Shown piece by piece: positions 1-22,465 of a stretch of DNA of 22,465 nt. Below the pieces are notes generated by a model, which ran no database searches, was not told the origin of the DNA, and worked only from the letters and a program-made list of their open reading frames with translations. Both the position numbers and the translations under genes were made by a program. The stretch covers positions 34,366 through 56,830 of the IMG/VR virus record IMGVR_UViG_3300047649_000007. The stretch is one strand, 5' to 3'. The first letter of the stretch is position 1; each line of letters begins with the position of its first letter. The stretch is from a virus.

Positions 1-135
1 TTTATTAAATACCGTTGGGTCTGCCAGTCCATTCGTCATTCCGTTAATTGCGGCTGCATTCGTCGGATAATTTGCATCTGGCGTCATGTTTGCGTTTGCT
101 GAATCGAATGGAATAATGTTGTTTGTTCCTGCCGT
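1..135 (-). CDS. Tail-fibre-type protein, N-terminal 45 codons (runs off the window), apparent ACG start
   Basis: The open frame begins directly after the stop of the DUF2612 gene and runs off the window edge. Read with methionine at the first codon it begins M-A-G-T-N-N-I-I-P-F-D, then NANMTPDANYPT and later NGMTNGLADPTVFNK. From memory, this resembles the conserved N-terminus of tail-fibre or tail-associated proteins of contractile phages, which attach the fibre to the baseplate. No ATG, GTG or TTG lies between the upstream stop and this conserved block. The codon where ATG is expected is ACG (135-133), 5 nt after a strong Shine-Dalgarno AGGGGGTGA. The first in-frame ATG (87-85) has no visible ribosome site and would remove the conserved start. 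Either ACG is used, or the gene is silenced by a T-to-C change, or this is a sequencing error. Confidence 0.6.
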
Positions 136-714
136 TTAGCTCACCCCCTGTGGTAGCCAGTAGCCTTCGCCCCAACCACCAAATGCTTCTGTTTCAAGTC
201 CCCAAGTAAATATCTTGTTTGATGTAATGTTGATTATCAAGTTAACACCCTCTGGGCGTGGAACAATTACACCGTGTGAAATCAGATCACTTATAATTGA
301 AGTTGTCACGCCGTATACAATGACGTTAAGTGACATGTCTTGATTGTCCTGCACATAAAAATACAGCCCCGTGTTACCGAGAGCTGTTTGAAATAGGCCG
401 TAAAGTCCGGGCGCGGTACCATCAAACTGTGCCTCTGCGATTGTGGACTTTAGCACTAATCGATATGTGGTATCATCCATAAGAGCCGATACACCGTCAG
501 ATGGTTGGAATGGTAAAAGGCGCGGCCTGTTGAGAATAACCCCCAGCGCGTCAAGCTGCACACCTACAGCAGTATCAAGATCATAATTGGTGTAAAAGTT
601 AATCAAAAAGTTTTGAATATCATTCACAATGCTTAACGCTGAGGTAAGCCACGCGATAAATTTGGGCTTTGTGGCATGTTCGGAAGTAATGAGGTTCAAA
701 TAATCATCAATCAT
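136..714 (-). CDS. Baseplate/tail protein of the DUF2612 family
   Basis: This 192-aa protein matches the DUF2612 family of phage proteins. It sits between baseplate J and the tail fibre, the position held by P2 gpI and Mu gp48. By analogy it probably links the baseplate wedge to the fibre. Recognisable features are the N-terminal helical stretch (residues 1-50), the segment with AVGVQLDALGVILNRPR at about 50-66, and the aromatic, glycine-rich tail (WGLETEAFGGWGEGYW). The ATG overlaps the TAA of baseplate J by one base (TAATG), which indicates translational coupling. The family call is from recognition of sequence and position; no catalytic activity is expected. Confidence 0.8.
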   Translation of the reverse strand: MIDDYLNLITSEHATKPKFIAWLTSALSIVNDIQNFLINFYTNYDLDTAVGVQLDALGVILNRPRLLPFQPSDGVSALMDDTTYRLVLKSTIAEAQFDGTAPGLYGLFQTALGNTGLYFYVQDNQDMSLNVIVYGVTTSIISDLISHGVIVPRPEGVNLIINITSNKIFTWGLETEAFGGWGEGYWLPQGVS

Positions 715-4448: not shown

Positions 4449-5030
4449 TTATTTTGTTTGAACCCCACAGTCGGGGCAATACATAGTATCCGGTGTAAAA
4501 GCTCTACCACATTTCGGACATTGCCTATTAGGTGTCCCTATTTTTGTACCGCATTTACGGCAGTATACAGTTCCTGTAGGATTTGAATTATAACAATTTG
4601 GGCATATAGCTGGGCTATTAGCTTCTTGGTGAGTTGCTTCCCACACCACTTTTTGGCATACTAAAGTTCCTGCTATTTTATCATGTAGTGCTTGTTTGCG
4701 CCCATCAAATGCAGCTATTATGTATCCAATAAGTAATATGATAGCCGAAATATACTTGGAAAAATATCTTCCGGTTGCTTTCCCAAAAGAAATTTTATTA
4801 CCGTTTAAATCGGTTACAACAATTCCCATTGCCGTTTTCCCTAATGTTGCTTGCAAATCTGATGATTCCATTAACGAAAAATATAACCACGAAATACCCA
4901 TTATTATAAAAAAAGAGAAAGACCCACAGACAAATACTGCAATCAGTTCTGGAATAAGAAGCACTAATGAATCTATTATATATGCCACAAATCTTGTAAA
5001 AAATCCTGCATACCATCCTATACCGTTCAC
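4449..5030 (-). CDS. RDD-family membrane protein with two C-terminal zinc ribbons (moron)
   Basis: Residues 1-127 form an RDD membrane domain: Arg13 and Asp20 in the first helix (TRFVAYIID), a second hydrophobic helix at about 27-55, LQATLGKTAMGIVV at 59-72, SFGKATGRYF, a third helix at about 92-108, and the closing block with Asp117 in LHDKIAGTLV. A C-terminal tail carries two CxxC...CxxC zinc ribbons (Cys143/146/157/160 and Cys171/174/185/188). RDD proteins are small integral membrane proteins, mostly of unknown function. This one has no virion role I know of. It interrupts the tail operon and has its own promoter and terminators, so it is best read as a moron expressed from the lysogen. 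The GTG start is chosen because AAGGAG lies 8 nt upstream. Confidence 0.88.
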   Translation of the reverse strand: MNGIGWYAGFFTRFVAYIIDSLVLLIPELIAVFVCGSFSFFIIMGISWLYFSLMESSDLQATLGKTAMGIVVTDLNGNKISFGKATGRYFSKYISAIILLIGYIIAAFDGRKQALHDKIAGTLVCQKVVWEATHQEANSPAICPNCYNSNPTGTVYCRKCGTKIGTPNRQCPKCGRAFTPDTMYCPDCGVQTK

Positions 5031-22217: not shown

Positions 22218-22465
22218 CAGGCTCACCGCCCAGCTTTTCAAATATGTTTTCAAGCGGCTGTTGAGGCGTAAGTGCATTCATGAGACTTGACAAGTCTTGA
22301 CTCGTTGGCGGTTCATCTTGTTTTGCTGCTTGCGCTTTGGCAAATTCAAGCTTCTGCTGTTCAAGCTGTAAATGTTCATCTTCTTGCTTTGTAAGCCCTT
22401 GATATTTTTCAAGGCGTTGGAGAGCCTTTTGCTTGTCGTGTATTTTAACTTCGCATTCAGTGCTA
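22204..22465 (-). CDS. terS: Terminase small subunit, C-terminal part (start beyond the window)
   Basis: The frame is open from the window edge to the TAA at 22206-22204 and gives 86 residues. It includes EVKIHDKQKALQRLEKYQGL near the start, the hallmark C-terminal helix of Terminase_2 (XtmA-type) small subunits. A long charged coiled-coil region follows (DEHLQLEQQKLEFAKAQAAK), then an acidic end. It recognises the packaging site and feeds DNA to the large subunit. The N-terminal DNA-binding domain is outside the window. The gene overlaps terL by 14 nt. Confidence 0.85.
   Translation of the reverse strand, partial: STECEVKIHDKQKALQRLEKYQGLTKQEDEHLQLEQQKLEFAKAQAAKQDEPPTSQDLSSLMNALTPQQPLENIFEKLGGEPDAEK

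Follow-up and report, generated by a model that had tools for sequence, protein, structure and literature searches.

An ACG codon at the start position of a phage tail-fibre gene, most likely a weak initiation site held by an extended Shine-Dalgarno sequence

Introduction

Some bacterial genes begin at codons outside the AUG, GUG and UUG set. In S. aureus, infC, cvfC1, ccpN and citZ start at AUU or AUA, in the first three together with an extended Shine-Dalgarno sequence (SD); in poor medium, output from the three non-canonical sites that were tested was about 10% of that from AUG (PMC13009471). The tail-fibre gene described here shares with these cases a codon other than AUG, GUG or UUG, an extended SD nearby and a lowered output, which for the fibre is predicted. 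It differs from them in that AUU and AUA carry their mismatch at the third position, whereas that of ACG lies at the middle one, and in that the infC, cvfC1 and ccpN starts are conserved across species, whereas the relatives of the fibre have TTG, ATG or GTG instead.

A phage parallel is the tail-spike gene 21 of Bacillus phage SPP1, the only gene of known function in that phage to start with UUG and not with ATG (PMC6316719). Like the fibre gene, it encodes a protein of the receptor-binding end of the tail; in contrast to ACG, UUG is a standard start, and SPP1 is a lytic phage.

Outside bacteria, ACG starts are known from AAV VP2, and in plastids and mitochondria ACG is edited to AUG. VP2 resembles the fibre gene in having ACG at its start position and is a weakly made structural protein; however, these examples depend on leaky scanning in eukaryotes or RNA editing in organelles, neither of which is known to operate in bacteria. 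Hecht et al. reportedly obtained initiation from all 64 codons in 2017. In a set of E. coli reporters, ACG reached 0.1–1.5% of the ATG output (PMC6925171), IF3 rejects non-canonical codon-anticodon pairing, and an SD raises re-initiation beside a stop codon more than threefold in E. coli (PMC2268962). A literature search found no natural ACG start for bacteria or phages.

The phage genome

The window, that is, the whole stretch of 22,465 nucleotides analysed here, belongs to a 56,830-base virus record. Its end (window 22339–22465) equals G000 C1:1–127 as a 127-bp direct terminal repeat, and because this repeat is shared by both ends, the record closes as a circle of about 56.7 kb. The gene for the terminase small subunit spans the circle join. 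An integrase, an S24-type CI-like repressor and an antirepressor are encoded, which together point to a temperate phage. Around the fibre the gene order is baseplate J, DUF2612, fibre, two small proteins, one more ORF and endolysin. In a mechanical survey of the minus-strand genes, an ATG, GTG or TTG start with an SD could be assigned to all except the fibre gene. The earlier note had considered a knockout in a decaying prophage; a genome closed by the 127-bp repeat, its integrase, repressor and antirepressor, and the start and SD kept by the other surveyed genes speak against such decay. A tie to host-range switching, also raised there, is conjectural.

Two decoding explanations were rejected. 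The genes of the window translate normally under table 11, which rules out an alternative genetic code. The sole phage tRNA is a tRNA-Thr with anticodon UGU (G000 C1:1609–1683, in L003, minus strand), and its fully paired acceptor end marks it as an elongator type, ruling out a phage initiator tRNA reading ACG. Among threonine codons, ACA is the most frequent (186 of 413 in a count over 15 genes of the window).

Viral contigs showed no further instance of this junction in a pattern scan that allowed any base at the first two positions of the start codon, and a protein search with the fibre for near-identical viral contigs gave distant C-terminal matches only and no second copy. DNA searches of phage and plasmid records yielded nothing relevant, and in prokaryote genomes from the phyla of two distant prophage relatives (398 each, largely overlapping) the best baseplate J match reached 49%.

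The fibre frame and its ribosome-binding site

The fibre frame on the minus strand opens at an ACG (window 135–133) that abuts the TAA (138–136) of the DUF2612 gene (Table 1). Read 5′ to 3′, the junction is ...CTACCACAGGGGGTGAGC-TAA-ACG-GCAGGAACAAACAACATTATTCCATTCGATTCAGCAAACGCAAAC-ATG...; the DUF2612 gene ends in ...CAGGGGGTGAGC-TAA and is followed in frame by ACG and GCAGGAACAAACAAC, which encodes AGTNN.... The two genes thus share one frame with zero bases between stop and ACG, and an upstream stop adjoining a downstream start that has an SD is the arrangement of a termination-re-initiation coupled pair. Translation from the ACG gives TAGTNNIIPFDSANAN-M17, and codons 2–16 contain no ATG, GTG or TTG. 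The frame is intact across 208 codons from stop to stop (G000 C1:34500–33874, extending past the window) and retains the conserved C-terminal NPxTNPxTYx. Its product matches the tail fiber profile phrog_11303 (E=2.8e-12, residues 3–111).

Table 1. Features at the DUF2612-fibre junction (window coordinates; energies are predicted anti-SD pairing).
Feature	Position	Strand	Evidence
Upstream DUF2612 baseplate protein gene, 192 aa	136..714	-	ORF; PF11041 E=2.7e-25
Extended SD AGGGGGTGA, within DUF2612 coding end	141..149	-	5 nt from ACG; duplex -15.3 kcal/mol
ACG, expected fibre initiation position	133..135	-	aligned with TTG/ATG/GTG starts of homologues
Tail-fibre gene, codons 1–45 of 208	1..135, on to G000 C1:33874	-	phrog_11303
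First in-frame ATG, codon 17, without SD	85..87	-	SD energy -1.8

The extended SD ahead of the ACG is not a chance match. It is of the GGAGGUGA type and is separated from the codon by the spacer GCTAA. By predicted pairing to the 3′ end of 16S rRNA it ranks second of the 79 sites in the survey, which average -9.8 kcal/mol; the corresponding value at ATT codons 7/8 of the fibre is -5.7 kcal/mol. In a blind scan of both window strands, four sites reached -14.5 kcal/mol or lower, and the three on the coding strand, the fibre site included, each lie ahead of a gene start. With up to 3 mismatches allowed, the 17-mer AGGGGGTGAGCTAAACG occurs once, against 0.05 occurrences expected, and CAGGGGGTG is identical in the relative L018, though the adjacent codons differ. 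The sequence therefore agrees with the earlier note on the fibre gene, on its expected start position, on the SD 5 nt before the ACG and on the lack of any ATG, GTG or TTG until codon 17.

In a structure model of the fibre (mean pLDDT 68, low in the C-terminal half), residues 1–20 reached about 90, so that a protein beginning at Met17 would lack a conserved arm that is ordered in the model. There is a weak resemblance between the model and chains of phage tailspikes and tail fibres, a match of low confidence that serves as a lead only.

Start codons of homologous fibres

Relatives were gathered via the baseplate J protein and via the fibre, using a profile of its N-terminal domain. This gave 53 distinct fibre frames, from which L037 was excluded for its longer N-terminus, leaving 52 placeable starts. 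The aligned start codon is ATG in 38, TTG in 11, GTG in 2 and ACG in the present phage alone; TTG or GTG is found in 13 of the 51 homologues. The fibre thus has a codon other than AUG, GUG or UUG at the homologous position, and this codon is not kept in the relatives. Whether homologues begin at a different codon had been raised as a possible objection; in position, they start exactly where the ACG stands. Their AGTNN motif begins immediately after the start codon, and the N-terminus is conserved up to the ACG here.

The closest relative, L018, is 92% identical in baseplate J and 87% in DUF2612. Its junction is CAGGGGGTGCATTAA-TTG-GTTGGCACAAAT, with an identical SD and TAA stop, and its fibre likewise sits directly behind UAA. 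A single T-to-C change from ATG, proposed earlier as the origin of the ACG, is possible, but the TTG of this nearest relative is two changes away. The two fibres differ further along: the N-terminal domain and the NPxTNPxTYx tail are joined directly in the 110-aa L018 fibre, whereas the fibre here is about 95 residues longer between them (L004:3877–4500 versus L018:3580–3909), which points to a domain insertion or loss.

TTG starts occur in the fibres of L018, L025, L026, L046, L066, L100, L110, L121, L127, L129 and L132. Ten of these (those listed other than L110) share with the present fibre a homologous N-terminus, the same start position and a strong SD, and differ from it in having TTG, not ACG. 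The TTG share was 11/52 for the fibre versus 4/76 for baseplate J and 6/84 for DUF2612 (10/160 for these two neighbours together), an excess with Fisher p=0.010 and p=0.030, respectively, when kinship is ignored. It is TTG alone that is enriched, as non-ATG starts overall did not differ significantly between fibre and J (p=0.065) or DUF2612 (p=0.53). Judged from these alignments, the ACG is in the correct position, and a weak start codon there is nothing unusual for this gene.

In L025, near position 5001, the frame of baseplate J carries an ATT at the place of the ATG in its homologues. This ATT is preceded by an extended SD (AAAGAGGTGATCAAT-ATT), and AAAGAGGTGATC-AAT lies ahead; a GTG three codons upstream of the ATT falls within this SD and is itself preceded by none. 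The ATT, seen on a single metagenomic contig, may be another non-canonical start in this family of tail cassettes, and it fits the same rule as the fibre ACG, an extended SD with a non-canonical codon.

Discussion

Our assessment is evenly balanced on whether the ACG is real and serves the tail-fibre gene as a working but inefficient start. If so, ribosomes ending DUF2612 translation would halt at the UAA touching the ACG, the extended SD AGGGGGUGA, with 9 potential base pairs to 16S rRNA, would keep the 30S placed so that the ACG occupies the P site, and fMet-tRNA, with its CAU anticodon, would start there despite one mismatch at the middle position. The product would be fMet-AGTNNIIPFD..., its rate of synthesis would be a fraction of that from ATG, and such low-rate initiation may be likened to the AUU and AUA starts with extended SDs in S. 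aureus. The site may work like a non-canonical start of that type, yet it is not a conserved member of the group. Few tail-fibre copies are needed per virion, from which we infer that low output can suffice. With somewhat less assurance, we suggest that this could be a natural functional phage ACG start, in which an extended SD and stop-adjacent re-initiation adjust how much is made of a receptor-binding tail protein whose gene tends to weak starts. Rare ACG initiation that lowers fibre output, one of the options in the earlier note, is in our view the best reading, although we infer the initiation itself.

A working ACG is supported by the homologues, which start at the equivalent codon and in L018 and L025 use TTG there, by a strong SD that is kept in L018 and whose coding-strand equals in the window stand solely at gene starts, and by a closed circular phage without any other lost start. 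Counting against it are the low activity of ACG in E. coli reporters, the rejection of non-canonical pairing by IF3 and the finding of ACG in no other homologue, unlike the conserved AUU and AUA cases.

A consensus error from assembly or sequencing, or the call of a minor variant, in a population that has a standard start, is a somewhat unlikely explanation, yet the leading rival. ACG and ATG are one base apart, the codon is unique among the placeable fibre starts, and the phage is represented by one metagenomic contig, for which the search of viral contigs gave no second copy. However, the genome shows no further start loss, and the non-ATG codon of L018 at the same site indicates that weak codons are tolerated there. 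The 77 genes offer 539 possible single-base start-loss changes versus 5,889 nonsense changes, so that random errors are about 11 times likelier at nonsense sites than in start codons: if a single random substitution broke a gene, it would do so by removing a start in 8% of cases (13% if only transitions are considered) and by a nonsense change in the other 92%. This 8% share gives a roughly tenfold argument against random error or decay, weakened by the fact that the site was chosen for its oddness.

Distinctly improbable is a true mutation of recent date that disables or impairs the fibre and is carried by a lysogen or a defective sub-population. Since the phage is temperate, with its integrase and S24 repressor, a tail gene that is damaged could survive in the prophage state, and the weakness of ACG in E. 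coli reporters would suit a crippled gene; against this stand the closed circular genome in which every other gene has a start and the intact 208-codon frame with its conserved C-terminal motif.

Very unlikely is a fibre start elsewhere in the frame, at ATT codon 7/8 behind the weak GGCAGGA or at ATG codon 17. Bacteria are known to start genes at AUU (cvfC1, pcnB; PMC13009471) and a weak SD lies ahead of both ATT codons, but either choice would lose the conserved AGTNN that directly follows the start codon in homologues, ATG17 has no SD, and residues 1–20 are modelled confidently. Readthrough of the UAA, which would append the fibre to the C-terminus of the DUF2612 protein and decode ACG as threonine, is scarcely credible: the genes share a frame with no intervening codon, as also in L018, but the ORF tables of the relatives show no fused DUF2612-fibre ORF, a strong SD at the junction would not be needed, and UAA is usually a tight stop.

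We conclude that the ACG is a real feature of the sequence and most likely a weak start, held by its SD and probably coupled to the adjacent stop. Standard gene finders take ATG, GTG and TTG alone and would thus annotate this fibre at least 16 residues short or miss it. If ACG works here, the natural start codons of bacteria would extend to a mismatch at the middle position, and the junction would provide a native test of the extent to which an extended SD and an adjacent stop can override start-codon checking. The TTG excess among the relatives suggests that fibre dose may be held low through weak starts.
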